Shown here: positions 15,030 through 30,041 of the stretch, piece after piece
How the letters are laid out: every line of letters starts with the position of its first letter
Numbering within the stretch: position 1 is the first letter of the stretch
Assembly: GCA_022844565.1 (NCBI GenBank)
Contig: JALHLK010000033.1
Coordinates: forward strand, 1-57,430
Direction of reading: 5' to 3'
DNA: 57,430 bases
From: Saprospiraceae bacterium
GTDB lineage: Bacteria > Bacteroidota > Bacteroidia > Chitinophagales > Saprospiraceae
The notes under the pieces: model-generated
The model's database searches: none
Told to the model about the DNA's origin: nothing
Seen by the model: only the letters and a program-made list of their open reading frames with translations
Made by a program: the position numbers and the translations under genes

Positions 15030-15398
15030 TTATTTATTTTTATCACCTAACACCTGAATCTCCGTTCCATTGGGTGCAGCCCTTCGTTTATTCCAATAAG
15101 TACCTTCCATTCCAAATGCAATAATCGCCCAAACTAAAAGCAAAGTTGGTAAAAGAACGGTCTTTACTAAGCCCGGTACTTCGTATTTCATGTGCATGAA
15201 CTCATAAATTATTAGGTAAGCTTTGTAAATACTCGCTCCTATCATTGCGACACCCATAATAAGTGGCGGAAAATGTAGACCATCAATTATATAACCCTTT
15301 CCCAATAAAGCAAAGGCTACCTCTACTATTGTAATGATACCAAGTATAGTAATTATTCTATTTGCTGTTTTTTTTGATTCTTCGTATGTATGACCCAT
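15030..15398 (-). CDS. Cytochrome c oxidase subunit IV (bacterial CoxD-like)
   Basis: A small inner-membrane subunit of the haem-copper oxidase, 122 residues with three predicted membrane helices (about 15-34, 41-62, 76-98). The segment PPLIMGVAMIGASIYKAYLIIYEFMHM matches the pattern of the prokaryotic subunit IV family, which stabilises assembly and is not catalytic; I quote only part of it as KAYLIIYEFMHM. It is the last gene of the respiratory operon, 37 bases after coxC and directly before the terminator. The family call rests on context plus the three-helix pattern. Confidence 0.85.
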   Translation of the reverse strand: MGHTYEESKKTANRIITILGIITIVEVAFALLGKGYIIDGLHFPPLIMGVAMIGASIYKAYLIIYEFMHMKYEVPGLVKTVLLPTLLLVWAIIAFGMEGTYWNKRRAAPNGTEIQVLGDKNK

Positions 15399-15435
15399 TG
15401 CCTAAATTTTTAATAATTTTAAAAAATGATATTAA

Positions 15436-16281
15436 TTAAAGAAGATAAAATAGTAAAAACACAAATACCCAAACTAAGTCTACAAAGTGCCAATATAAGC
15501 CTATCTTCTCTACCATTTCATATTTGTTCTTCCTCTTTTCATATAAACCTGTCGCACTATTTAACATAATTATCAATAGAAAAGCAACACCTGATAAAAC
15601 GTGAAAACCATGGAATCCTGTAATAAAAAAGAATAAAGCGCCAAATGCTTTAGGACCAAATTTTTGTTCCTTTACAACATCAGTCTCTTTACCACCTTCA
15701 ATTACATTATATTTGAGCGGTGCCCATTCTCCATCGTGTTTGTGTATAATGTATGAGTCACCAGCTTCGAAGGTTGTTCCTTTTACAATATCATGGCCAT
15801 CACCTTCTTGATATACCCCAGCTTCTGTGTGGGTTCCGAAAGGATTTATCCTGATAGTCATATTCTCACCATTAATTAGTGTATTCCACTCCCAAGCTTG
15901 ACATCCTAAGAATATTAATCCTCCAATGATTGTAAAAAACATCCATTTTACAACACCATTTTTGTTTTCTTGCTGACCTTCTTGTACTGCTCTTACCATA
16001 GTGTACGAACTTGCTAAAAGTACAAAAGTCATAATTGTTACAAAAATCAATGGTTTATGGTGAATCCCTCCTGGTAAAGAACTAAATACAAAGTCAGGAA
16101 CTGGCCACGTTGGTACACTAAATCTTAAAGCACCATATGCAATCAAAAATCCAGCAAATGTAAATGCATCTGACACCAAAAAGTACCACATCATTAATTT
16201 TCCATAACTCGCCTTAAAAGGCTCACTAGCACCTTGCCAATCAATCTTTTGTTCCTCTCCCGTTGTTGTCGTTGAAGCCAT
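15436..16281 (-). CDS. coxC: Cytochrome c oxidase subunit III
   Basis: Integral membrane subunit III of the aa3/caa3-type oxidase. The 281 residues contain the family motifs FLGCQAWEW and FFITGFHGFHVLSG, and end in the conserved YWHFVDLVWVFVFLLFYLL-type helix (YWHFVDLVWVFVF). Between the third and fourth helices is a hydrophilic stretch of about 65 residues (about 130-195) facing the periplasm, longer than in classical subunit III. The N-terminus is also extended. It lies 18 bases after a second, shorter subunit III gene, and both would be made together. Confidence 0.92.
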   Translation of the reverse strand: MASTTTTGEEQKIDWQGASEPFKASYGKLMMWYFLVSDAFTFAGFLIAYGALRFSVPTWPVPDFVFSSLPGGIHHKPLIFVTIMTFVLLASSYTMVRAVQEGQQENKNGVVKWMFFTIIGGLIFLGCQAWEWNTLINGENMTIRINPFGTHTEAGVYQEGDGHDIVKGTTFEAGDSYIIHKHDGEWAPLKYNVIEGGKETDVVKEQKFGPKAFGALFFFITGFHGFHVLSGVAFLLIIMLNSATGLYEKRKNKYEMVEKIGLYWHFVDLVWVFVFLLFYLL

Positions 16282-16299
16282 ATCTTCCGTTGTTGTTTT

Positions 16300-16878
16300 C
16301 TATTTTATAAAAAGTATAAATCCTAATAGGTATATCCATAATATACCCATAAAATGCCAATAATGTACGAGCATCTCTAATCTTGTTTTCCTCTTATCAT
16401 CATTTCCAAATCGAAGTACAAATGCATTTATTATAGTAGCTACTAATGCTCCCATCCCCCCAAACAAGTGTAAGGCATGTGCACCAGTAATTAAGTAAAA
16501 AAATGAACCAGCAACATTTGACTTTAAATCTACCCCACTTTCAAAAAGCATGTTCCACCCTTTGTATTGAAGAACAAAAAATACCAAACCCAATATAAAT
16601 GTAGCTCCCAGTAAAATTTTATAGATACTTTCTAAACTTTTTGTATATGAAACACTTGCAAAGTGCAAAGTGATACTACTTACAATTATTATCCCAGTAC
16701 TAATATAAAAAATTGACGGTACTTTAATATTAAACCAATTTGACGCACCTTGTTTTACGATATATGCGCTAGTCAAAGCTCCAAACAGCATAACAATACT
16801 TGCCATACCAATCCATAATCCGAACAACTGAGGATTGAATTTTAGTGTGTCTTTGCTATTTACTGTCAAAATTTCCAT
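16300..16878 (-). CDS. Second cytochrome c oxidase subunit III-like protein
   Basis: A 192-residue, five-helix subunit III-family membrane protein. It has LITGAHALHLFGG, equivalent to the GFHGFHV motif of the longer subunit, and the C-terminal HYWHFMGILWIYLLGFILF. The long hydrophilic insertion of the neighbour is missing. Paired subunit III genes in one operon are usual in Bacteroidota oxidase loci, so this is probably a paralogous structural subunit and not a remnant. It lies 15 bases after cyoE. Confidence 0.88.
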   Translation of the reverse strand: MEILTVNSKDTLKFNPQLFGLWIGMASIVMLFGALTSAYIVKQGASNWFNIKVPSIFYISTGIIIVSSITLHFASVSYTKSLESIYKILLGATFILGLVFFVLQYKGWNMLFESGVDLKSNVAGSFFYLITGAHALHLFGGMGALVATIINAFVLRFGNDDKRKTRLEMLVHYWHFMGILWIYLLGFILFIK

Positions 16879-16893
16879 CTATTTATTAACAAT

Positions 16894-17790
16894 TTAAGAT
16901 ATTAAAAAAGTTACCAATAAAATTGGCATATAAATAAACGAATAAAACATTACTGCTAATGCCGATTTTCGATCAAATTGATTTCTAAATCTCCAAGACA
17001 TATAGGCAAAACCGATTGTGAGTAATAGACCTACAATAAACATAGCCAAATTTAAATATCCAGCTGTAAAAAGAAAATATAAAATTGGTAAGATAGCTAA
17101 TGTGTACATAAACCCATTTAAAGCAACACTTCTTTCTATTTCACCACCTTCCTCTGGAATAAATTTATATTCGGCCTTTTTATAGTCACCAAAACCCAAA
17201 AAAGCTATTGACCAAAAATGAGGAAACTGCCAAAAAAATTGAATAAAGAAAAGTGAAACTGCTAAAATACTCAAGCTTCCTTCAGCAGCTGTGCAACCAA
17301 TGAGAACTGGTAATGCACCAGGTATCGCACCAACTGCTACAGCAATAGGTGAGTATCTTTTTAGAGGTGTATAAACAAATGAATATACAACCAATGATAA
17401 CATCCCTAGTACAGCGGTCAATGGGTTAAACATTGCCAACATAGACACTCCTATTGCACACGAAAGCCCAGCAAATAACACTGCATCAGATACAGTCATT
17501 CTTCCAGCAGCTAATGGTCTATCTGCAGTACGAGACATCATTTTGTCGAAGTCCTTTTCTAAGACTTGATTTAAAGTATTGGCTGAAGCCGTTACTAAAA
17601 ATCCACCAGCAAATAACAAGGCTACTTCTGTCGGATTGATTGTCGAGCCAGCAGAAGCAATGAAAAACCCTAAAAGCGAAGTCATCACCACCGTCAACGA
17701 TAATCTAAGCTTTGTCAAAGCCACATATTCAGCAAAAATACTTCTCTGCTGAATTGAAATCCCAACTGCCAAATTTTTATCCTCTTTCAA
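16894..17790 (-). CDS. cyoE: Protoheme IX farnesyltransferase (haem O synthase)
   Basis: An inner-membrane prenyltransferase that adds a farnesyl group to haem B to make haem O, the precursor of haem A for this oxidase. The 298-residue protein has about eight helices and the conserved substrate-binding loop NQVLEKDFDKMMSRTADRP, whose Asn and two Asp bind the diphosphate. A second loop carries YTPLKRYSPIAV. It lies between coxA and the subunit III genes with gaps of 23 and 15 bases, so cofactor synthesis and subunits share one transcript. Haem A synthase is not in the window. Confidence 0.95.
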   Translation of the reverse strand: MKEDKNLAVGISIQQRSIFAEYVALTKLRLSLTVVMTSLLGFFIASAGSTINPTEVALLFAGGFLVTASANTLNQVLEKDFDKMMSRTADRPLAAGRMTVSDAVLFAGLSCAIGVSMLAMFNPLTAVLGMLSLVVYSFVYTPLKRYSPIAVAVGAIPGALPVLIGCTAAEGSLSILAVSLFFIQFFWQFPHFWSIAFLGFGDYKKAEYKFIPEEGGEIERSVALNGFMYTLAILPILYFLFTAGYLNLAMFIVGLLLTIGFAYMSWRFRNQFDRKSALAVMFYSFIYMPILLVTFLIS

Positions 17791-17813: not shown

Positions 17814-19655
17814 TTAATGATCTACTACTTCTCCCTCTTTTGCAGGCTCTACTTGTGTTACAAACTCTCTTTCGTCTTTGTTGTAATCATAAGCCCATCT
17901 ATGTACTGTAGGTAGATTACCTGGCCAGTTACCATGAATAGGCTCTATAGGTGTAGTCCACTCTAATGTCGTCGCACCATAAGGATTTTGCGTGGTCATT
18001 TTCTTACCTTTCCAAATGCTGTAGAAGAAGTTAACTACAAAAATTAACTGACCGATGAATACTATGATTGCAGCTATTGTTATAAACTTATTCAATGTAT
18101 CAAAATGCTTGAACGCATCAAAAGTATCAAAAGAATAATATCTCCTCGGTACACCTGCCATTCCGATATAATGCATTGGCCAAAAAACGAGGTATGCACC
18201 TACCATAGTCAACCAAAAATGCACTTTACCTAATGTCTCATCCATAAATCTAGAATACATTTTAGGATACCAATGGTAAATTCCAGCAAACATACCAAAG
18301 AACGCTGCCACACCCATCACAATATGAAAGTGAGCAACTACAAAATAAGTATCGTGTAATTGAATATCGATTGCAGAGTTTCCTAAGAAAATACCTGTTA
18401 AACCTCCTGATATAAACATAGATATAAAACCAATAGCATACAACATTGCGGTATTCAATCGTATATTTCCACCGTAAAGCGTAGTAATCCAGTTAAACAC
18501 TTTAATTGCCGAGGGCACTGCAATGATCAACGTAAATACAACGAAGAAATTAGATATAAATGGATTTACTCCAGACATAAACATATGGTGAGCCCACACG
18601 ATAAATGATAAAAATGCAATTGCTAGAATTGATAATATCATCGCAGTATATCCAAATATTGGCTTCCTTGCATGAACTGAAAGTACTTCAGATACGATTC
18701 CCATTGCTGGCAATATAATAATGTAAACCTCAGGGTGACCCAAAAACCAAAATAAATGCTGATATAAAATAGCAGAACCACCAACTCTGTCTAAAGCCTG
18801 TCCACCAATAAAAATCTCATTCAAAAAGAAACTTGTTCCTAGACTTCGATCAAAAATCAACATAAAAAATCCTGAAGCTAAAACTGGGAATGATAAAACC
18901 CCAATAACAGCTGTAACAAAGAATGCCCAAATAGTTAACGGCATTCTGAAAAGTGACATACCCTTTGTTCTTAAATTTAAAACAGTTGTGATGTAATTGA
19001 TACCTCCAAGAAGTACAGATACTACAAATAATGTCAGACTCACTAACCACAATGTCATACCTGAACCTGACCCTTGTGAAGCCTGAGGCAATGCACTTAA
19101 TGGTGGGTAAGCAGTCCAACCTCCTGAGAACGGACCCGTACTAATAAATAAGGAGTAAAGCATAACCATACCAGCCATAAAAAAGAACCAGTAAGATAAC
19201 ATGTTTAAAAAAGGAGAAGCCATATCTCTTGCACCCAATTGTAATGGAATAAGTAAGTTACTAAAAGTACCACTTAAACCAGCCGTTAGTACAAAAAATA
19301 CCAATATCGTACCATGCATCGTAACGAGTGCATAATAAAATTCGGGAGATAACTTACCTACACCGTCTGTAACTTCTATCCATTTGCCCAAAAGCGGTTT
19401 TAACCAAGCCATACTTTCTTCTGGAAAGCCTAATTGCAAACGGAAAATAATAGACATAGCAGCTCCAACTACAGCCCAAAATATACCCGTAATCAAAAAT
19501 TGCCTTGCTATTACTTTATGATCCATCGAAAACACATAATGACCTAAGAACCCAGTTTGGTATTTGTCACCATGGTGGTGATCATGAAAATGATCGTTGA
19601 ATCCTTGCTCTTTTATGAGCACATCTTCTCTGGTTAATGTTTCAACACTTGCCAT
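17814..19655 (-). CDS. coxA: Cytochrome c oxidase subunit I
   Basis: The catalytic subunit that reduces O2 and pumps protons. The 613 residues form 12 or more membrane helices. The active-site segment GHPEVYIIILPAMGIVSE contains the CuB His307 and cross-linked Tyr311, with Glu309 of an A1-type D-channel. VWAHHMFMSG carries the other two CuB His, and LHDTYFVVAHFHIVMG carries the haem a3 and haem a ligands. The N-terminus has an unusual His-rich patch (HFHDHHHGDKY, near residues 22-32). It lies 10 bases after coxB. Confidence 0.97.
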   Translation of the reverse strand: MASVETLTREDVLIKEQGFNDHFHDHHHGDKYQTGFLGHYVFSMDHKVIARQFLITGIFWAVVGAAMSIIFRLQLGFPEESMAWLKPLLGKWIEVTDGVGKLSPEFYYALVTMHGTILVFFVLTAGLSGTFSNLLIPLQLGARDMASPFLNMLSYWFFFMAGMVMLYSLFISTGPFSGGWTAYPPLSALPQASQGSGSGMTLWLVSLTLFVVSVLLGGINYITTVLNLRTKGMSLFRMPLTIWAFFVTAVIGVLSFPVLASGFFMLIFDRSLGTSFFLNEIFIGGQALDRVGGSAILYQHLFWFLGHPEVYIIILPAMGIVSEVLSVHARKPIFGYTAMILSILAIAFLSFIVWAHHMFMSGVNPFISNFFVVFTLIIAVPSAIKVFNWITTLYGGNIRLNTAMLYAIGFISMFISGGLTGIFLGNSAIDIQLHDTYFVVAHFHIVMGVAAFFGMFAGIYHWYPKMYSRFMDETLGKVHFWLTMVGAYLVFWPMHYIGMAGVPRRYYSFDTFDAFKHFDTLNKFITIAAIIVFIGQLIFVVNFFYSIWKGKKMTTQNPYGATTLEWTTPIEPIHGNWPGNLPTVHRWAYDYNKDEREFVTQVEPAKEGEVVDH

Positions 19656-19665
19656 CTTTTTTTTT

Positions 19666-21189
19666 TTAACTTTTTGAAATAACCCTTAGTTCTGTTCTTC
19701 GATTCGTTGCTCTTCCTTCTTCTGTATCGTTTGTTTCTGCAGGTCTAGAATCACCATAACCTACTACTACCATTCTATCAGCACTTATACCTTTCTGAAC
19801 TAATCTATTCACCACAGATTGAGCTCTCTGTCTTGACAATTCTCTATTAGCAGCTGAATCTCCCACATTATCCGTATGGCCACTCACTTCTACTTTTACA
19901 TTGCTATACTTGTTTAACAATCCTGCCATGTGGTCTAACTCAAAGTAAGAATCAGATTCTAACCCCGCAGAACCAGTTTCATAATACACATTCTTAAACC
20001 TGATCGTTGTTGCTGTTGAAGCACTATCATTCACCGCATTTACAGCGTCGTAAACTAGTTTGTTTAACTCCGTGTTTCGCATTTTAATTTCAGAAGGTAA
20101 TAACCTTTTATCCTTGAGTGGATCTAGATCAGTCCCTCTAATATTTGTTAGATAAAATGGTTGCTTTTCAGCTATCCACGCCTTGTAAGTATCTCTGTCT
20201 ACGATTTCAATAACCCTTCTCATACTGTAATGACCCTTGCCACATAATTCAGCACAAGCTAGCTCATATTCAAAAGCTTCCCATCTTTTCGGGCCCTCAG
20301 GATCCTTTGGATCATATGGCTCATTCCACTCAGGATATTTACTCAATTCTTTACGCATTTGCTGCGTAGTTTTAGTAGGTTTAAAGCTAAAATAAGTAGG
20401 TAAACCTGGTACAGCATCCATTTTAACTCTGAAATGAGGTAAGTAAAAGTTATGCAAAACATCTTTAGACGTTATAGCTACTCTTACCATCGTATCTACT
20501 GGTAATACAATTTTGTCCGAACCACCCAACAAGATGTCATCTTGACTAAGCGTGTCAGTAAAATCAATACCTAAGGAATTTGAAGCCAAGTCAATTAACC
20601 TGAAGTCCTTATTTCCTACCCTTCCATCTTTACCACCATATCTTACATCCCAAGCAAATTGATATCCAGTAGCTTCTATTTCAACATAATTTTCCGTTGG
20701 GTCCAAATCTGTCATTACATTATTCCAAACTACTAAACCCTTTGCTACTAAGAATGCCATAGCTACTGCAGGAATCGCTGTCCAAATCAGCTCTAATTTT
20801 GTATCATGAGCTAAGAAAATTGGCTTATTTCCTTTGGCTTGACGGTACTTATAAGAATACCAAAAAGTAAGAATATGCGTTATTATAAATACAATTCCCG
20901 TAAGAATCAATGTAATATTAAACATACTATCAATCTCCGATCCGTGTTCAGAAGAAGATGCCCAAGGCCCATATCCTAACATTGAATCTTTGTAGTAATA
21001 AGCAGAAAATACGGTGCCTAATAAGAATACTATCATAAACACCATCATCCAAAAAGCTGTATTGTTGTTGCGCTGCATTGCAACTTCTTCCTCTCCCCTT
21101 ATCTTCGCTGCAACTTGAGAAATCTTACTAACTTGAAGCAAGATTACTATGATTAGCGTAAAAATTAATAAACCTATTAAATAATTCAT
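19666..21189 (-). CDS. coxB: Cytochrome c oxidase subunit II fused to an OmpA-like domain
   Basis: Subunit II takes electrons from cytochrome c through its CuA centre. The 507 residues have an extra N-terminal helix (3-20), further helices near 47-65, 88-110 and 132-150, and a periplasmic cupredoxin domain. CuA ligands are intact: Cys312, Cys316, His320 and Met323 in CAELCGKGHYSM. A linker (about 340-392) leads to a complete OmpA-like domain (about 396-505) with SGHTDNVGD, SRQRAQSV and the C-terminal NRRTELRV. Asp440 and Arg455 are 15 apart, as are the peptidoglycan-binding Asp271 and Arg286 of Acinetobacter OmpA. This fusion suggests the oxidase is anchored to the cell wall. Gaps: 45 bases after actF, 10 before coxA. 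Confidence 0.95.
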   Translation of the reverse strand: MNYLIGLLIFTLIIVILLQVSKISQVAAKIRGEEEVAMQRNNNTAFWMMVFMIVFLLGTVFSAYYYKDSMLGYGPWASSSEHGSEIDSMFNITLILTGIVFIITHILTFWYSYKYRQAKGNKPIFLAHDTKLELIWTAIPAVAMAFLVAKGLVVWNNVMTDLDPTENYVEIEATGYQFAWDVRYGGKDGRVGNKDFRLIDLASNSLGIDFTDTLSQDDILLGGSDKIVLPVDTMVRVAITSKDVLHNFYLPHFRVKMDAVPGLPTYFSFKPTKTTQQMRKELSKYPEWNEPYDPKDPEGPKRWEAFEYELACAELCGKGHYSMRRVIEIVDRDTYKAWIAEKQPFYLTNIRGTDLDPLKDKRLLPSEIKMRNTELNKLVYDAVNAVNDSASTATTIRFKNVYYETGSAGLESDSYFELDHMAGLLNKYSNVKVEVSGHTDNVGDSAANRELSRQRAQSVVNRLVQKGISADRMVVVGYGDSRPAETNDTEEGRATNRRTELRVISKS

Positions 21190-21234: not shown

Positions 21235-22518
21235 TTACACATGGTGGTGTAAACTTTCCTCTAAATATGGATCATTTTTAGGCGTTAAGGCATGCTTACC
21301 TAATGCGTTGAAAACGATCAAGCAAAAGAATCCTAGAAAACCTAACATGGTGCCCAATTCCAATAAACCTGGAAAGGTAAATCCACTAACTATACTGGAA
21401 ACATGTTCTGCAGCATGAGCATGATCATGAGATGCGTCAGCAGCACCATGATCCGCATGTCCTAATGCTTCATGCGCAGTATGTAAAACTCCTGGCTTAA
21501 TCATTAAGAAGAAATCTACCCAATGGAAAATGAAAACTACTATAGCAACAAAAGAAAGCGTTCCCACCTTTCTTTTTGTATCATTTCTTAATAGGACAAT
21601 AAAAGGCAAAACAAAGTTTACAGCAATATTTGCAAAAAATAGAACTGGATAGTTATCATATCTTTCTTTGAAATAGATGGTTTCTTCTCCAACGTTTGCA
21701 TACCAAATCAACATAAACTGAGAAAACCACAAGTAAGTCCAAAATACAGAAAAAGCAAATAATAACTTACCCATATCATGAATATGATGTTGATTGAGGT
21801 TTTGGTAATATCCGTTACTTCTCAAATATAGCAATGTCAAAATTATAAAACACACTACTGAAACAAACCAAGAAGCCAAAGTATACCATGCGAACATAGT
21901 ACTATACCAATGTGCATCGATACTCATTATCCATTGCCATATTAATATAACACTAGTAAAACCTATTACTGGTAATAAGATTGCAGCCCAATATCTTTGT
22001 TTTGAATTAAGTGAAAAAGTACTATCAAAACCCGCAGAATCTTCAGCGACTGATAAAGATTTGATCTTATTGATTAAAAATACATATGCCCCACCAAATA
22101 CTACCGTAAGAATCATAAACATATTACTATTTAAAAATCCAGATTTTCCTAACAAAATAGGATCTTCCGCTACAGCTTTGGCATCGGTCCAATGATATAA
22201 ATGATGTAGATGTAAATAATTTCCAATGCCTATTATTGCAATAAGCCCCAATCCATAGGGTAAAAAAGCTGTTACTGCTTCAAAAACTCTTTTGAATGCC
22301 ACATACCAACCTCCATAAGCCAATAAAGCTGCGGCAATAAAAAATGAAGCCATTATTGCCATCCCTGTAAAAAATACGGAGTTGTGCAACATATTGGACC
22401 AAAATCTACTGTGCAATGCATCATCAGTCATAAAAGTTATACCTAGACATAAGACACCTATTCCTATCATGACTAGAAATACTGTTCGAAGACCTGATGA
22501 TAAATTAAATATATTCAT
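21235..22518 (-). CDS. actF: Alternative complex III subunit ActF
   Basis: A polytopic inner-membrane subunit of alternative complex III, which oxidises quinol and reduces cytochrome c or passes electrons directly to the oxidase. The 427 residues form about ten helices, with typical segments such as ILIWQWIMSIDAHWYSTMFAWY and FSQFMLIWYANVGEET (quoted in part). A His-rich stretch (HADHGAADASHDHAHAAEH) lies before the last helix. ActF is a paralogue of ActC and is not known to hold haem. It is the last act gene, 26 bases after actE and 45 before coxB. Confidence 0.92.
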   Translation of the reverse strand: MNIFNLSSGLRTVFLVMIGIGVLCLGITFMTDDALHSRFWSNMLHNSVFFTGMAIMASFFIAAALLAYGGWYVAFKRVFEAVTAFLPYGLGLIAIIGIGNYLHLHHLYHWTDAKAVAEDPILLGKSGFLNSNMFMILTVVFGGAYVFLINKIKSLSVAEDSAGFDSTFSLNSKQRYWAAILLPVIGFTSVILIWQWIMSIDAHWYSTMFAWYTLASWFVSVVCFIILTLLYLRSNGYYQNLNQHHIHDMGKLLFAFSVFWTYLWFSQFMLIWYANVGEETIYFKERYDNYPVLFFANIAVNFVLPFIVLLRNDTKRKVGTLSFVAIVVFIFHWVDFFLMIKPGVLHTAHEALGHADHGAADASHDHAHAAEHVSSIVSGFTFPGLLELGTMLGFLGFFCLIVFNALGKHALTPKNDPYLEESLHHHV

Positions 22519-22544: not shown

Positions 22545-23348
22545 TTATTGATTTTCTTTGGTAGTTACTGCAGATATCGCCTTTTCACTTTCTGCTTTTG
22601 CTTTTAATACTTCAGCAGGTATTTCCACTGTTCTAAAAGTATTTTCCTTTTCGGAATAAACTAAATTTTTTGATCCAGCTTGTAGTGACCTAATGTAATG
22701 AATTACTTGCCACCTTTCTTCATAAGAAAGCTTATCTTTATAATTTCCCATTAAGTTTCTACCATGAAAAATTGCATGATAATATCTACCATTTGTAGCT
22801 TGTACATGCTCATCTAATAGAAAATTAGCTGGTTGAACGGGATATTTACCTCCATCTCTAACTAAATAACCTGCACCATCTGCCTTTTCACCATGACAAA
22901 TACCACAAAATATGTCATACAACTCTTTTCCTTTAGCCAAACCTGCTGTCGTAATAGGGTATGGATTATTTATGATTTCTGCCATTGCTCTCAATCTATC
23001 TTCTTCTGTATTTGCATAATAATAAGGAACAGACCCATTCACTGGAATAGATATACCTTGGTGAGAAGACATCCCTTTATTTGCCATTGCTAGTGCATCC
23101 GTAGCTTGACTTCTCGGTCTAGAACCATTTACCGGCATTCTTGGAGAAGACATTTTATGTTTTTCGCTTTCAGTGCCCCATGTGTTTTGGTAGTAATAGC
23201 TGTATAAATTAGCTTCAAAAGCTACCCCATGAGCCATATCAGGTATGTATTCACTTCCTGTTGAATTCTTACCAGCCTGTTGACAGGCAGATAAAGAAAT
23301 TATTAAACCAATAATTAAAGGAAATACTATTTGATTATATTTTTTCAT
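22545..23348 (-). CDS. actE: Alternative complex III mono-haem cytochrome c, ActE
   Basis: A lipoprotein (lipobox LSAC, Cys22) with one c-type haem site, FCGICHGEKADG, in the second half of the 267 residues. It presumably takes electrons from the ActB/ActA core and hands them to the soluble carrier or the oxidase. The axial Met is likely in the segment GRNLMGNYKDKLSYEERW, typical of class I cytochromes c. The order after actD matches known act clusters. It lies 23 bases after actD. Confidence 0.92.
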   Translation of the reverse strand: MKKYNQIVFPLIIGLIISLSACQQAGKNSTGSEYIPDMAHGVAFEANLYSYYYQNTWGTESEKHKMSSPRMPVNGSRPRSQATDALAMANKGMSSHQGISIPVNGSVPYYYANTEEDRLRAMAEIINNPYPITTAGLAKGKELYDIFCGICHGEKADGAGYLVRDGGKYPVQPANFLLDEHVQATNGRYYHAIFHGRNLMGNYKDKLSYEERWQVIHYIRSLQAGSKNLVYSEKENTFRTVEIPAEVLKAKAESEKAISAVTTKENQ

Positions 23349-23371: not shown

Positions 23372-23896
23372 CTAAATTATCTTATGACTTACTTCCGAAG
23401 CACCAGATGATTTAAAAAATGCTTCCGCTGCACTTTCACTCACTTCAGCCTTGTTAAAGGCAATACAAAACTTATCATCTGTAATTCTATCATCAAGATA
23501 AGCATTTGTAACACCAGGACCTAGCCCACATACAATGTAAAATGAAACAACCATACCTATTGCTGCAAATAAAACTGTCATTTCAAACACAATTGGAATA
23601 AAAGCAGGTACAGACCAATATGGCTTACCTCCAAAAATTATAGGCCAATCCTTTGTAAATACCCAAGACATACCAAGAAATGCTGTCAAAAAACCAATCA
23701 TACCGTACACAAAACCTGCAATATGTAATCTAGATTCTTCTAAACCTAAAAGTGGATCTAAACCATGAACTGGAAATGGAGAATATACATCCATTATGTC
23801 GAGATGTGATTCATTAGCCTTTTTTACCGCTTTAAGTAAATCTTGCTCATCGTCGTACAACCCATAAATTATTTCTTTGTGTGATGCTACTGCCAT
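23372..23896 (-). CDS. actD: Alternative complex III subunit ActD (DUF3341)
   Basis: A 174-residue membrane subunit with two central helices (about 60-80 and 97-120). Recognisable DUF3341 segments are IYGLYDDEQDLLKAVK at the start and MDVYSPFPVHGLD. In structures of alternative complex III this small subunit packs against ActC/ActF. No cofactor motif is seen. It lies 35 bases after actC. Confidence 0.92.
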   Translation of the reverse strand: MAVASHKEIIYGLYDDEQDLLKAVKKANESHLDIMDVYSPFPVHGLDPLLGLEESRLHIAGFVYGMIGFLTAFLGMSWVFTKDWPIIFGGKPYWSVPAFIPIVFEMTVLFAAIGMVVSFYIVCGLGPGVTNAYLDDRITDDKFCIAFNKAEVSESAAEAFFKSSGASEVSHKII

Positions 23897-23931
23897 CTTT
23901 ATACTATTTTCTTTACTTACAAATTTATAAA

Positions 23932-25356
23932 TTAATGTGAAGCTTCTACTTCTTCGTGCTTACCACCATGATCGTGATGATGAATAGCATTCTTGCCTAC
24001 ATATTGATCACCAGATGTTTTTAATATTGATTTAATTTCAGCTACTGCTACTACTGGAGCAACTCTACTGAATATTAAATAACATGTAAAGAACAGTCCA
24101 ATAGATCCTATGAAAATACCTATTTCTACCCAAGAAGGTGAATAATAACTCCAAGATGAAGGTATATAGTCTCTTGCCAATGTAGTCGCAATGATAACAA
24201 ATCTCTCAAACCACATTCCAATATTAATTACAATTGATAAAAAGAATGTTAATTTTAGATTTCGTCTCCAAGATTTTTTCCAATACAATTGGGGAGACAA
24301 AACATTACAAAACATCATTCCGAAATATGACCACCAATATGGACCAAATACTCTATTGAAAAATGCATATTGCTCATAAACATATCCAGAATACCATGCA
24401 ATAAATAATTCTGTAATATAAGCTACCCCTACTATTGTTCCTGTCAATAGGATTACTTTGTTCATAGATTCGATATGCTCTATTGTGATATAATCTTCTA
24501 GTTTAAGCAATTTCCTAGTTACGAGCATCAATGTTTGCACCATAGCAAAACCAGAGAAAATCGCTCCAGCTACGAAATAAGGAGGAAAGATGGTGGTGTG
24601 CCAACCTGGAATGATTGAAGTAGCAAAGTCAAAAGATACGATCGTGTGAACTGAAAGAACTAATGGAGTAGATAAACCTGCTAAGATAAGGGATAAAGAC
24701 TCCCATCTTTGCCAATGTTTTGCCGAGCCTGTCCATCCAAATGATAAGAAATTATATATCTTTTTTCTGAGACCTTTAGCTCTGTCTCTCACTGTAGCAA
24801 AATCGGGTACCAGACCTGTGTACCAAAATAATAAAGATACTGTGAAATAAGTACTAATCGCAAAAACGTCCCATAAAAGTGGTGAATTAAAGTTTGGCCA
24901 AAGAGGACCTCTTGTATTCACGTATGGGAAAATGAAGAAAGCCATCCAAATTCTACCCATGTGAATTAGAGGAAACTGCCCCGCACAAATTACCGCAAAT
25001 ATGGTCATGGCCTCAGCCGCTCGGTTTACCCCTGTTCTCCATTTTTGTCTGAAGATTAATAAGATAGCTGAGATAAGCGTACCCGCGTGACCAATACCAA
25101 CCCACCAAACGAAGTTGGTAATATCCCAACCCCATCCAATTGTTCTGTTTAAGTTCCAAGTACCTGTACCCATATAGATCGTCCATCCCACTGTGAATAC
25201 AAATACCCCTAGTAATGTAGCTGAGATGATAAACCCTATTACCCATGCTAACGGTGGCGTCTTTTCAGTAGGTGAAATTAGATCTTCCGTGATCTGATGA
25301 TAAGTCTTATGCCCTGTTACTAAGACATGTCTCATTGGACTTACTGGTGCACTCAT
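23932..25356 (-). CDS. actC: Alternative complex III quinol-oxidising subunit ActC (NrfD-like)
   Basis: A polytopic membrane protein of the NrfD/PsrC family that binds and oxidises menaquinol and passes electrons to the Fe-S domain of ActB. The 474 residues form about ten helices. Typical segments are TNFVWWVGIGHAGTLISA, HMGRIWMAFFIFPY and FDFATSIIPGWHTTIFPPY (each part of a longer conserved stretch). The C-terminus is His-rich (HHHDHGGKHEE). It lies 40 bases after actB. Confidence 0.94.
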   Translation of the reverse strand: MSAPVSPMRHVLVTGHKTYHQITEDLISPTEKTPPLAWVIGFIISATLLGVFVFTVGWTIYMGTGTWNLNRTIGWGWDITNFVWWVGIGHAGTLISAILLIFRQKWRTGVNRAAEAMTIFAVICAGQFPLIHMGRIWMAFFIFPYVNTRGPLWPNFNSPLLWDVFAISTYFTVSLLFWYTGLVPDFATVRDRAKGLRKKIYNFLSFGWTGSAKHWQRWESLSLILAGLSTPLVLSVHTIVSFDFATSIIPGWHTTIFPPYFVAGAIFSGFAMVQTLMLVTRKLLKLEDYITIEHIESMNKVILLTGTIVGVAYITELFIAWYSGYVYEQYAFFNRVFGPYWWSYFGMMFCNVLSPQLYWKKSWRRNLKLTFFLSIVINIGMWFERFVIIATTLARDYIPSSWSYYSPSWVEIGIFIGSIGLFFTCYLIFSRVAPVVAVAEIKSILKTSGDQYVGKNAIHHHDHGGKHEEVEASH

Positions 25357-25396
25357 TTATTTATCTTTTTCTTCTTTCTCAAAAATATTTTAACAA

Positions 25397-28300
25397 TTAA
25401 GCATCTAAGCTTTTATCTCTATTATTTACCTTCATTGTATAGTTCACTGAAGATCTAACGTTGATTTCTTCGAGAGATATAAAGTTTAATGGTAGTTCTA
25501 GTTTCGCATGCAATGCTCCTTCTTTATTATTAGAGTCTCCAAAAGTAATCGCTCCAGTTGGACAAGAAGTTTGGCATGCCGTTTTTACATCTGAATCTCT
25601 AAGAACTCTCTGCTCTTTTTTGGCTGTTAATTTTCCTTCTTGTATTCTCTGTACACAGAAACTACATTTTTCGATAACTCCTTTTGATCTTACTGTGACA
25701 TCTGGATTTAATACCATTCTTGTCAAATTTTCAGCTCCGAAAGTAAGTTCTTCACCAAATTTCTTATATTGGTTAGCTGGAAAACTATCAGCGGTAGTAT
25801 AGTCAAACCAATTGAATCTTCTTACTTTGTAAGGACAGTTATTTGCACAATATCTTGTACCAATACATCTGTTGTATGTCATTTGGTTTAATCCTTCAGA
25901 AGAGTGGTTAGTGGCATTCACTGGACAAACATTCTCGCATGGTGCATTATCACAATGTTGACACATCATAGGTTGATACACCGTATTTGGATTTTCTACA
26001 TCACCATAATAATATCTGTCTATTCTCAACCAAGTCATCTCGTGATGTCTTGAAACTTCTTTCTTACCTACGATCGGTACATTGTTTTCTGACATACAAG
26101 CTACAGTACAAGCACCACATCCAATACAAGCATTAAGATCGATGTGCATTCCCCAGTGATGACCATTGTTGTATAAATCATCATGTCCACCATATATCTG
26201 TTTGCTATTCAGGTATTGTGCATGCTTCCTTTTCTTGTCTAACTCTGCCGCATTGGCTTTTATGTCAGCAAGATTAGATGTATACATTACAGACCTATCC
26301 GTCAATGAACCCTGAAATCCTTTGATTCCAGTAAAATAATCAAAGAATACTGTTGCCGCTTCATCAGCGTTGATCATTTGTCCAGTATCATTGTCTTTAC
26401 CTTTTACACCGTAAGTATGATGGTACTGTACACAAGAAAACTCTTCTTCTTTACCAATTTTGTTAGATACTTGCACTTTAGAACTGAAGTTTTGTGCGTA
26501 TCCATTATTATCCGTCAAAAAAGGAATCAAACTGATACCTAAACCTGTACCGCAAGCTCCAGCTTCTGTTCTACCATAACCTAGATTAATGCTCACAGTT
26601 CCAGGCATTTGACCAAATTGTTGAATAACAGGTACTGTAAACTCTTTTCCATTAATGGTAAGTTTAGCCAAGTCTCCATCTTTCAATCCATTAAGGCCTA
26701 CCATGCTTGAGTCACCGTCAAAATTCACAGGTACTGCAAGATAATTACCCCAAGATGTTCTATCTATTGGATTTGGCATTTCTTGTAACCAAGGGTTGGT
26801 AGCATATTGTCCGTTGCCTAGGCTTATAGACTCTTTGAAGCTAATTTCCAACGGGGCATTTGATACCTTTGTTACAGCGCTGAAATCAATAGTGCCGCCA
26901 CCAAAAGATGCTGCTGCACCTCCAATTGTAGACATAACACCTAGCTGTAAAGCATTATCCCAAAATGCATCAACAGTAGCAAAATCAGTCTGCGCTTTAA
27001 ATGCTGTCTCTGCCCATGTAGCCTTTATATATTCAAAAATATCTGTAGACGGACTTTCTGACCAAGTCAAATAAGATGATTCTACTTGTCTACTATTAAA
27101 TAATGGTGCTATTGTAGGTTGTACTAAACTCAAAGTAGTTGATGTAGGCTGTGCATCACCCCAGCTTTCTAAGAAGTGAGGTTTTGTGGCTATGAAATCA
27201 CAAAGTATATTAGTTTCATCTTTTGAAAGCCCAAAAGCTACTTTTGTCTTAACTTTTTTCAAAGCTTCTGCAAATTGTAAACCTTTTGCATGGCTATATA
27301 CTGGATTAGCACCATCTATAATCAATACATCTACAGCACCAGATTTCATCTCATTTAATAATGCATCAAAATCTTTTTCACTGCCTTGCTTGGTTAATAT
27401 TGCATTTGATGTGTCGATTGTAGTACCATAGTTACCTAGTGTATTATTGATCGCATTGACCATTTGTTGTTCAGCTGGAATATTAGATCCAGAAACAACA
27501 ATAGATTTTCCGGAAGCATTCTTTAATTGGCTTGCAACTTTTGCTAAAGATGCTTTTGCTTTATCATTGAGACCAGTGACAGGAGCTCCTCCACCTACTA
27601 TCAAGTTATATAAATGACCTACTGCTACACCTTGCTCAGAAGGTTTTACAAGTATTCTATTATCAGCATTTGAGCCTGATAATGACATTCCTGCCTCAAC
27701 TTGTATATGTCTAGACATTTTTGCCTTACTAAGGTCTGTGATTTTACGCATTTGAGCGTAATCAGAAGCAAATTTGGTGGGCATAACCCATGTACCTAAA
27801 AAGTCCGCGTCAAAACTTACAATTACCTCAGCTTTATCAAAATGATATGAAGGAATCATTCTTGAGCCAAAGTCTGCCAAATTCGCATCCAAAATTCCTG
27901 AGTAATTTGAATGATCTACATTTACTACTTTAGCAGAAGGATATTTTGCAATGAACTCAGCTTGTGCTTTCTTAGCTGTTGGGCTAGTATTACTGATTTG
28001 TAAGATTCTGATACCTGATGCAGTGGCAAGAGCTGATTTTACTTTAGTGTCAAGATCTTTCCAAGTCGTAAGACTTAAATTACCAGCTTCAGATTTTTGT
28101 GGACCCGTAAGTCTATTCGTATCATACAAACTAATAACTGACGCTTGGACTCTTGCCGAGGTAGTACCCCAACCCGAAGGAGCTAAATCATTACCTTCTA
28201 TCTTGATTGGTCTTCCATCTCTAGTTTTTACTAAAATTGATGCAAATTCACCTCCATCGATATAAGAAGAAGCATAATAATTGGCAATCCCAGGTACAAT

Positions 28301-28555
28301 CGTATCTGGTTTAATCACATAAGGTAGCGCTCTTTTGACTGGGATATCGCAACCTGCCGCAATAGTAGCTGCACCTAAACCAAAGCCTAAAAATTTAAGA
28401 AAATCTCTCCTGTTTGAGGCAAAAACTTCTTCATTTTTCGAATCAGCTATTTGCTCAATTAGTGATGTCTCTAAACCAGATTCTTCTATAAAACTTGGGT
28501 CTTGCTCTAAATCTTTGATTCCAACCCAGATATTATTGTTTTGCATCTTATCCAT
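25397..28555 (-). CDS. actB: Alternative complex III Fe-S / molybdopterin-like subunit ActB
   Basis: A 1052-residue fusion of a molybdopterin-oxidoreductase-like domain that holds no cofactor in this family with a ferredoxin-like domain. A variant Tat-like signal, NRRDFLKFLGFG (49-60), is followed by Cys69. The C-terminal 300 residues carry Cys clusters CIGCGACTVAC, CQHCDNAPCENVCP, CIGTRYCANNCP and CSFC...CQTSCP. One group has only three Cys, fitting the three [4Fe-4S] plus one [3Fe-4S] known for ActB. It moves electrons from quinol at ActC to the haems. It lies 43 bases after actA. Confidence 0.95.
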   Translation of the reverse strand: MDKMQNNNIWVGIKDLEQDPSFIEESGLETSLIEQIADSKNEEVFASNRRDFLKFLGFGLGAATIAAGCDIPVKRALPYVIKPDTIVPGIANYYASSYIDGGEFASILVKTRDGRPIKIEGNDLAPSGWGTTSARVQASVISLYDTNRLTGPQKSEAGNLSLTTWKDLDTKVKSALATASGIRILQISNTSPTAKKAQAEFIAKYPSAKVVNVDHSNYSGILDANLADFGSRMIPSYHFDKAEVIVSFDADFLGTWVMPTKFASDYAQMRKITDLSKAKMSRHIQVEAGMSLSGSNADNRILVKPSEQGVAVGHLYNLIVGGGAPVTGLNDKAKASLAKVASQLKNASGKSIVVSGSNIPAEQQMVNAINNTLGNYGTTIDTSNAILTKQGSEKDFDALLNEMKSGAVDVLIIDGANPVYSHAKGLQFAEALKKVKTKVAFGLSKDETNILCDFIATKPHFLESWGDAQPTSTTLSLVQPTIAPLFNSRQVESSYLTWSESPSTDIFEYIKATWAETAFKAQTDFATVDAFWDNALQLGVMSTIGGAAASFGGGTIDFSAVTKVSNAPLEISFKESISLGNGQYATNPWLQEMPNPIDRTSWGNYLAVPVNFDGDSSMVGLNGLKDGDLAKLTINGKEFTVPVIQQFGQMPGTVSINLGYGRTEAGACGTGLGISLIPFLTDNNGYAQNFSSKVQVSNKIGKEEEFSCVQYHHTYGVKGKDNDTGQMINADEAATVFFDYFTGIKGFQGSLTDRSVMYTSNLADIKANAAELDKKRKHAQYLNSKQIYGGHDDLYNNGHHWGMHIDLNACIGCGACTVACMSENNVPIVGKKEVSRHHEMTWLRIDRYYYGDVENPNTVYQPMMCQHCDNAPCENVCPVNATNHSSEGLNQMTYNRCIGTRYCANNCPYKVRRFNWFDYTTADSFPANQYKKFGEELTFGAENLTRMVLNPDVTVRSKGVIEKCSFCVQRIQEGKLTAKKEQRVLRDSDVKTACQTSCPTGAITFGDSNNKEGALHAKLELPLNFISLEEINVRSSVNYTMKVNNRDKSLDA

Positions 28556-28598
28556 TATGCTTGTTATTCCTTTATTCTTAAATAAATTCCTTTATCGA

Positions 28599-30041
28599 TT
28601 AGTAATGACATTTTTGACATTCTAATCCTCCTATATCGGCTACAGTTACTTTAGTACGTTTACCTTCTTTGATCTCTGTATGAAATTGTTCATAACTCTT
28701 ATAGTAATCATTTTCAGAAAACTTAACTTCCGTCTCTCTATGACAGTTTATACACCAACCCATAGACAACGGAGAGTATTGTTTTACTACCTCCATTTTC
28801 TCTACAGCTCCGTGACATGTTTGACATGCTACTTTTCCTACAGCTACATGTTGAGCGTGATTGAAATAAGCATGATCAGGTAGATTGTGGATTTTCACCC
28901 ATTCAATTGGACCCGGTATAGTTTTCTTTTGTTCGTTGGTCAAAGATTTTTTTATATCACGCCATTGGTTATCCACCAATTCCTCACCATCAGCATCAAT
29001 AGCGGCAATACCTTTATCTGTAACATAAGCATCTGTCATCCATGCTGTGAAAATTGCCTTAATCGAATCTTCAGGCATTTTTTCATAATTTTCGATATAC
29101 TTATTATTCAATGGATCGTAACCTATAGAAGCAAATATCTTTGTAATTTCAGCTGTACCATATTGAGATCCCACTTTTATAGCACTATGGCAATTCATAC
29201 ATGTATTAGTTGCAGGAATGACACTGTGTTTTGATCTTCTAGCACCATCATGACAATACTGACAATCTATTTTATTTAAGCCCGCATGTGTGACGTGTGA
29301 GAATTTGATCGGTTGATCAGGCTCATATCCTTGCTGTCTTCCAAGGTTTATTGCTCTGTTTACTGTGGTGTAACCCCCGAAAATAACAAGACAAAATAAC
29401 AAGAAAGTAACAAGGCCTTTAGAAGTCAACACTTTCATTAAAGAAGGTTTATCATAATCTACTCCATCTTTGGCAGCTGATAATTGATTTAAATTGCCTA
29501 AAATTCTAAATAATATATACGATAATCCAGCAAGGAATAAAATTATAAGACCATACGACCATAAATTTGATCCTTTTGGCTCATCAACTACAGCTCCGGC
29601 TCCTGCTGGAGCACCTGCAGCCTTAGGAGGATATGTTCCTGCATAAACACCATCTATATATAACAGCATTGATGCAATTTCATCATCTGTAAGATCAGGA
29701 AAACCGGTCATAACTGTAGGCTTGTACTTATTCCACAACTCTACTGCTCTCGGATGACCCTGTTGGATCATTCCTTGGGAGTTTCTTATCCAAGCATACA
29801 AGTTTTCTTTTGTATCCCAATTAGCTTCAGCGCCTCCAAGTGCTGGACCTGTCAAAGCTGACTTCATGTCTTTAGCATGACAAGAAGCACAATTGGCTGT
29901 GAACAATACTTTACCTGCATCAGGAGATGGCTGTGCGTAAACATTAGTTATTCCTAAAAGAAATAATCCTAAAATAATTAAAACTGGTAACTTCCTAAAT
30001 CTGGATATCATCCTATTTATTTTTAATAATCTGATTATCAA
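28599..30041 (-). CDS. actA: Alternative complex III multihaem cytochrome c, ActA
   Basis: First gene of the respiratory operon, 480 residues with six CxxCH haem sites: CASCH near residue 54, then CQYCH, CMNCH, CQTCH, CINCH and CQKCH near the end. An N-terminal signal (about 10-37) precedes a class I cytochrome domain, then a membrane helix (about 165-180), a second helix (about 210-230) and a pentahaem domain. Rhodothermus ActA has five haems, so the N-terminal mono-haem domain is an extra fused unit. The N-terminus could start at the internal Met at residue 12. Confidence 0.93.
   Translation of the reverse strand: MIIRLLKINRMISRFRKLPVLIILGLFLLGITNVYAQPSPDAGKVLFTANCASCHAKDMKSALTGPALGGAEANWDTKENLYAWIRNSQGMIQQGHPRAVELWNKYKPTVMTGFPDLTDDEIASMLLYIDGVYAGTYPPKAAGAPAGAGAVVDEPKGSNLWSYGLIILFLAGLSYILFRILGNLNQLSAAKDGVDYDKPSLMKVLTSKGLVTFLLFCLVIFGGYTTVNRAINLGRQQGYEPDQPIKFSHVTHAGLNKIDCQYCHDGARRSKHSVIPATNTCMNCHSAIKVGSQYGTAEITKIFASIGYDPLNNKYIENYEKMPEDSIKAIFTAWMTDAYVTDKGIAAIDADGEELVDNQWRDIKKSLTNEQKKTIPGPIEWVKIHNLPDHAYFNHAQHVAVGKVACQTCHGAVEKMEVVKQYSPLSMGWCINCHRETEVKFSENDYYKSYEQFHTEIKEGKRTKVTVADIGGLECQKCHY

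Follow-up and report, generated by a model that had tools for sequence, protein, structure and literature searches.

An oxidase subunit II gene fused to an OmpA-like domain

The window analysed here, 57,430 nt from a Saprospiraceae bacterium (positions 1-57,430 of contig JALHLK010000033.1, assembly GCA_022844565.1; GTDB lineage Bacteroidota; Bacteroidia; Chitinophagales; Saprospiraceae, the family labelled f1 below), contains genes of alternative complex III and of a cytochrome c oxidase in the operon-like order ActA-ActB-ActC-ActD-ActE-ActF-COX2-COX1-CtaB-COX3-COX3-COX4, in which the gene for oxidase subunit II (COX2) runs on in frame into an OmpA-like domain. The features are as follows.

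15030..17790, minus strand: CtaB-like gene, two COX3-type subunits and a COX4-type subunit (PF00510, PF03626)
17814..19655, minus strand: cytochrome c oxidase subunit I (PF00115, 486.5 bits)
19666..21189, minus strand: cytochrome c oxidase subunit II fused to an OmpA-like domain, 507 aa (translation, Pfam, AlphaFold)
19675..20004, minus strand: OmpA-like domain, residues 396-505 (PF00691 at 402-497)
19825-19827, minus strand: Arg455 of the OmpA-like domain
19870-19872, minus strand: Asp440 of the OmpA-like domain
20005..20163, minus strand: linker, residues 343-395, with a predicted helix at 365-385 (AlphaFold model)
20221..20256, minus strand: CuA loop, residues 312-323 (residue check; low-confidence model)
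20401..20679, minus strand: COX2 periplasmic domain, residues 171-263, with His246 (PF00116)
20749..20958, minus strand: COX2 transmembrane part, residues 78-147 (PF02790)
21235..22518, minus strand: ActF (name taken from its position, which is shared by related operons)
22545..23348, minus strand: ActE, a single-haem-type cytochrome c with a lipobox-like start (PF13442, PF00034; named by position)
23372..30041, minus strand: ActD, ActC, ActB and ActA of alternative complex III (PF11821 ActD, PF03916 NrfD, Fer4, cytochrome c7, cytochrome c)

The names ActA, ActB, ActE, ActF, CtaB and first COX3 were assigned from domains, order and likeness; for CtaB and the first COX3-like gene (16300-16878) the basis was sequence and gene order, without Pfam. 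The ActF of the window gave no Pfam or NCBIfam match, and the ActE of the window genome has no OmpA domain by Pfam. Subunit I (17814-19655) adjoins the subunit II fusion in the oxidase operon, and the link of the oxidase to alternative complex III that had been proposed for this locus is borne out, with act and cox genes in one cluster here and also in relatives.

Related operons (loci are numbered L, genomes G and families f) showed some further features. In L036 (19732-20529) and L048 (21077-21499) an extra OmpA-domain gene is encoded on the opposite strand, at a distance of about 8-10 kb from the subunit II fusion. ActF carries a long variable stretch before its last membrane part in L084, L087, L089 and L100, which is rich in His, Asp and Glu in several of them, and the window ActF has a shorter version of it. 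ActE precedes ActD in L162 (G290), where the ActE open frame runs on upstream of the ActE-like part for about 200 residues.

The original prediction gave the coordinates of the fusion correctly but left its minus strand unstated, the plus-strand frame being full of stops. The whole OmpA domain lies, as Pfam confirms, in one intact reading frame of 507 residues with a complete CuA motif, matching PF00691 over its full length (81.8 bits, cut-off 27.2), and the enzyme part passes the Pfam cut-offs for COX2 (51.4 vs 22 bits) and COX2_TM (30.2 vs 22.8 bits). The NCBIfam equivalog CoxB (TIGR02866) scored below its cut-off (133.2 vs 147.7 bits); because subunit I of the same operon likewise falls below the cut-off of its own NCBIfam model (608.8 vs 670.75 bits), the protein looks like a diverged COX2 form rather than a non-member. 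The CuA ligands had been listed as Cys312, Cys316, His320 and Met323, which is right as far as it goes and omits His246, also present. These five residues, which we take to be the ligands of the CuA site predicted here, were invariant in a 32-row alignment, and Glu314 is also present in the CuA loop. Asp440 and Arg455 were confirmed and are 15 residues apart, as are Asp271 and Arg286 of Acinetobacter baumannii OmpA, which bind diaminopimelate according to the part of a review available to us (PMC7573547). The source genome has a single COX2 match, which is the subunit II fusion, and 14 OmpA matches.

Two neighbouring genes joined by a frameshift or an assembly fault, the caveat attached to the original prediction, are ruled out by the recurrence of this open architecture across many separate assemblies, including those of the named isolates Portibacter marinus and P. 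lacus. No point in favour of an assembly or sequencing artefact was found in this analysis, and we reject it as having next to no probability.

Predicted structure of the fusion

AlphaFold was run on the 32-row alignment, giving five models with mean pLDDT of 74.5-85.5. In the best model (mean pLDDT 85.5) the OmpA part, residues 401-507, was predicted with pLDDT of 88-96 by ten-residue blocks, and block 311-320, which holds most of the CuA loop, with pLDDT of 61. Besides the predicted helix 365-385 in the linker, two further helices were predicted at the N-terminus (residues 2-31 and 33-65). Foldseek placed oxidase subunit II chains at the top ranks and OmpA-type matches at ranks 47 and 48. 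The OmpA fold expected from the sequence was thus recovered as a confidently modelled domain, matching the OmpA C-terminal domain of Capnocytophaga gingivalis (5wtp_B, TMt 0.86) and PA0833 (6jfw_A, TMt 0.76), an entry whose title names peptidoglycan.

Distribution of the subunit II fusion

A genome-collection scan retrieved 72 related loci, most of them from records titled Saprospiraceae, of which 62 had OmpA in the same frame as COX2; this set is biased to the query, as one of the six search peptides falls inside the OmpA domain. The ten loci without the fusion include one in which the domain has decayed (L059), two in which it is absent (L067 and L070), two whose contigs end inside the gene (L062 and L077), one with COX2 and OmpA in separate broken frames (L076), three distant oxidases (L078-L080) and an OmpA protein only (L081). 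Among named isolates, the fusion is present in Portibacter marinus and P. lacus (L044, L068) and is missing from Flavilitoribacter nigricans (L070), whose ActE is without the domain too.

The fusion was then surveyed in sampled genomes at four ranks (family, 61; order, 149; class, 149; phylum, 118), screened by open-frame length first and then by sequence retrieval. The retrieved set excludes the long subunit II frames in G125, G258, G263 and G294 and, for most genomes, G098 and G122 among them, ActE frames no longer than about 300. Among the matches listed, COX2 was found in 55 of the 61 genomes of family f1 (six had no COX2 match), and 40 of these 55, spanning 39 genera, carried the fusion. 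The other 15, again among the matches listed, comprised four with OmpA on ActE, one with a decayed domain and ten with the domain on neither subunit. The 40 include G043 despite its broken frames, and the ten include G027, whose contig starts inside COX2 and whose ActE gene was unseen. Three genomes flagged with stops inside the match (G002, G034 and G060) had retrieved sequences open through both domains.

In the order sample, COX2 was found in 140 of 149 genomes; the 19 f1 members all had subunit II frames of at least 499, and 5 of the 121 genomes outside f1 were fused, namely G078 (f19), G172 (f18), G083 and G096 (f4) and G112 (f8). Other members of f4, f8, f18 and f19 had shorter subunit II frames, and the three sequences read from these families (L140, L174 and L175) had no OmpA on subunit II. 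In the class sample COX2 was found in 135 of 149 genomes, and OmpA was on subunit II in none of the 32 genomes read outside the order, mostly long-frame ones; beyond the class, none of the 13 COX2 frames in the phylum sample of 118 genomes exceeded 368 residues.

Subunit II carries other additions elsewhere. A CxxCH haem motif lies upstream of the COX2 part in the subunit II frames of L102-L111, L113-L115, L123 and L128-L130, from nine other families of the class (f32, f38, f39, f59, f71, f74, f77, f79 and f80); act genes were unseen in the retrieved stretches of these loci and, judged from the frames, this is a different fusion to the same subunit. In subunit II of f14, f35, f74 and f81 (L113, L120, L121, L128, L131, L133 and L134) a long helical-looking insertion separates the beginning of the periplasmic domain from the CuA half. 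Within f1, three subunit II proteins without OmpA (L085, L087 and L088, from G021, G056 and G057) have other C-terminal extensions of 103-152 residues, which gave no Pfam match.

The OmpA domain on ActE in other lineages

ActE of alternative complex III is described, in the parts seen of two accounts, as a monohaem cytochrome lipoprotein (PMC8552683, PMC5928083). In L082, L083, L084 and L095, f1 loci whose subunit II is without OmpA, it is ActE that ends in an OmpA domain (126-151 bits). The families of the window's order with ActE-OmpA besides f1 are f12, f2 and f22: among the matches listed, 12 of the 16 f12 genomes with an ActE match were clear cases, two more were ActE-OmpA interrupted by N-runs and two were without, and single genomes of f2 (G061) and f22 (G111) also carried it. 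A weak ActE-OmpA (33.5 bits, with the key Asp aligned to Trp) was seen outside the order in L165 (5476-6549; G264, f74), located elsewhere in that genome than its subunit II.

When 179 loci were scanned together, 130 had an open reading frame for both genes and 49 were missing one or both. The domain was on subunit II only in 72 of the 130, on ActE only in 16, on neither in 42 and on both in none. The 42 include the decayed L059 and L086, L145 and L147 with N-runs, L062 and L077 at contig ends and L076 with broken frames; five genomes, present in two collections, are counted twice among the scanned loci, and the 80 subunit II fusions correspond to 76 distinct domains. A plain hypergeometric count within the family gave 0.004 for this exclusivity, and 0.07 when counted as two lineages. 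Statistical exclusivity of the two carriers was accordingly rejected as not significant once kinship is considered; with independent pairs on the tree, significance is out of reach.

Origins of the fused domains

Tree tests used an OmpA-domain alignment of about 110 columns, on which most forks are weak, with 78 rows (22 of the 71 f1 subunit II domains drawn at random, 5 other subunit II domains, 19 ActE domains and 32 paralogues); three long rows, L165 among them, were dropped. With groups named by architecture, all fused domains as one clade were rejected (p-AU 2.9e-6), as were all subunit II fusions as one clade (p-AU 2.9e-6), so that a single capture is rejected on both counts. Because one-clade trees were rejected for the subunit II fusions, the trees indicate at least two captures of an OmpA domain by subunit II. 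Groupings of f1 with f8/f18/f19 (p-AU 2.5e-5) and of f4 with f8/f18/f19 (p-AU 0.045) were also rejected, which bears on where the captures fell; these two rejections count for less, the groups having been named after the first tree.

The f1 subunit II domains are compatible with a single origin (p-AU 0.556). The ActE fusions as one group were not rejected (p-AU 0.158), nor were the four f1 ActE copies as one group (p-AU 0.406) or the f2 and f12 ActE copies together (p-AU 0.583). The ActE copies and the f1 subunit II copies may have a common origin, as joining the latter with two f1 ActE copies (p-AU 0.271), with f12 ActE (p-AU 0.16) or with f1, f12 and f22 ActE (p-AU 0.119) was not rejected. 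The backbone tree, with 107 operons (domain on subunit II in 60, on ActE in 12 and on neither in 35), requires at least 15 state changes, and still 15 with L147 relabelled.

Conservation and selection on the OmpA domain

The Asp and Arg of the pair were both kept in 80 of 80 subunit II fusions and in 18 of 19 ActE fusions, with the Asp lost in L165. Among 69 OmpA paralogues the Asp was kept in 67 and the Arg in 69; since the pair is no less conserved in these paralogues, its conservation was rejected as proof of a respiratory role and marks a working OmpA domain, nothing more.

Selection was estimated on 13 pairs, three of which had dS under 1. For these three the OmpA part gave dN and dS of 0.004 and 0.417, 0.026 and 0.911, and 0.028 and 0.677 (dN/dS about 0.01-0.04). 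Over all 13 pairs its pN/pS ranged from 0.012 to 0.333; it exceeded the value for the remaining protein in 10 pairs, matched it in 1 and fell below it in 2. By these estimates the OmpA domain is under purifying selection, which, given the higher pN/pS in 10 of 13 pairs, is as a rule weaker than on the enzyme part. In L059 and L086 the best stretch of the decayed domain scored 23 and 9 bits, both without the motif; these are natural loss cases in which remnants are still attached to subunit II.

A chance fusion persisting without function would fit the absence or decay of the domain in several lineages. Set against this are the low dN/dS of the OmpA part, more than one capture in the same operon and the 39 genera represented among the 40 fused genomes (among the matches listed), and we regard such an explanation as very improbable. 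A second alternative is that the OmpA fold serves as an assembly or docking module, joining subunit II and complex III or binding another periplasmic protein rather than peptidoglycan. In the loci read the domain is on just two subunits of one supercomplex, two subunit II copies retain a remnant without the motif and one ActE copy is without the Asp, all of which would suit docking; both pair residues are nevertheless kept in 98 of 99 fused domains, subunit II acquired the domain in separate captures, and the variable linkers, 55-95 residues after the CuA loop in the subunit II fusions and roughly 52-199 residues after the haem region in the ActE fusions (both measured by motif), suit a flexible tether better than an interface. 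We consider docking unlikely, though the least so of the alternatives.

A putative tether between the respiratory supercomplex and the cell wall

The explanation that we favour, and hold to be probable, is that a peptidoglycan-binding OmpA arm on a long linker keeps the alternative complex III-aa3 supercomplex attached to the wall. The OmpA-like domain would be a putative peptidoglycan anchor. Carried by subunit II or by ActE, the partners that meet at the electron-transfer contact, it would reach into the periplasm, and its flexible arm would tie the alternative complex III-oxidase supercomplex to the wall. As one anchor per supercomplex seems sufficient, some lineages would have come to carry the domain on subunit II and others on ActE. 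We infer both the binding of peptidoglycan by the domain and the holding of the whole supercomplex, and consequences of the tether for diffusion or placement may follow, among them the patches of respiratory chain envisaged in the original prediction; the candidate benefits are fixed placement, membrane-wall spacing and less diffusion. The original prediction, that the oxidase is pinned to the wall probably together with alternative complex III, is partly supported by the fold, the Asp/Arg pair, purifying selection, the act-cox operon and, above all, ActE-OmpA in relatives.

The proposed geometry draws on work on Rhodothermus marinus: on the periplasmic side, ActE sits atop ActA, and a map at 20 A places the periplasmic part of subunit II beside the complex III cytochromes, near ActE (PMC5928083). 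The same source, as far as seen, reports a different arrangement for the supercomplex of F. johnsoniae, and for this reason the nearness of ActE and subunit II may fail in the organism of the window. In F. johnsoniae ActE is dispensable for electron transfer to the oxidase and its loss slows growth, according to the parts seen of PMC8552683. The ten of 55 f1 genomes with the domain on neither subunit (among the matches listed), together with the two decayed copies, argue against a general need for it.

An anchor might instead place the oxidase beside wall-bound machines (type IX secretion, gliding motors or outer-membrane redox partners) rather than immobilise it. The NCBIfam model of PorE, a type IX secretion protein, does match the domain, by OmpA-domain likeness only, but none of the operon's genes was recognised as a secretion or gliding gene, and we judge this placement improbable. 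The presence of such a domain on the oxidase, or on a cytochrome of the complex that feeds it, suggests that in many Bacteroidota of one order the respiratory machinery may be tethered to the wall. For the broader proposition of a wall-anchored respirasome, in which quinol-oxidising and oxygen-reducing complexes would form one unit fixed to peptidoglycan in much of the order, we put the chances at about even. If it is true, respiration would be held in place in the membrane rather than diffusing, and the anchor would have been captured more than once, on different subunits near the same contact.

Comparison with known systems

To our knowledge, whether bacterial respiratory complexes move freely or have a fixed placement is an open question. 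One respiratory supercomplex appears to have gained a domain of wall-gripping type more than once in evolution, and its presence on subunit II, ActE or neither in related genomes makes the placement question testable. No description of an OmpA domain on a respiratory complex, or on two subunits of a supercomplex, was found in the open-licence literature searched; both building blocks are well known, and their union on a respiratory complex is new within that literature. If the tether is real, this would be, within the same literature, the first case of a wall anchor built into a complex of the respiratory chain. One paper (PMC12487129), as far as seen, combines Saprospiraceae, cytochrome c oxidase and OmpA but treats them apart, and in the parts seen of PMC8552683, which pairs ActE, OmpA and alternative complex III, the OmpA mentions refer to the ompA promoter used for expression.

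The closest systems, F. johnsoniae ACIII-aa3 and R. marinus ACIII-caa3, match it in their Act and oxidase genes, likewise gathered in one cluster, and their oxidases are fed directly by complex III (PMC8552683, PMC5928083, each seen in part). Physical association of ACIII and oxidase is reported for both of these bacteria; in the window the act and cox genes share one cluster, and such an association is putative. The parts seen of the two papers describe no OmpA domain on any subunit.

The fused domain shares its fold, motif and Asp/Arg pair with the OmpA C-terminal domain of PF00691. OmpA-like domains are usually found on outer-membrane porins, lipoproteins or MotB-type stators; the one described here differs from these usual carriers in lying on an inner-membrane redox enzyme. 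MotB is an inner-membrane stator driven by the proton motive force and anchored to peptidoglycan by an OmpA-like domain, and it offers an analogy of working, NCBIfam MotB models matching the OmpA part of the fusion; the likeness claimed is confined to that domain, with no motor function in the oxidase fusion. In caa3 oxidases, which also bear an extra periplasmic domain on subunit II (2yev_B is among the Foldseek matches), a cytochrome c is fused to that subunit. There the extra domain is a redox carrier, whereas the extra domain of the fusion described here is, by its sequence, of a putative wall-binding type.
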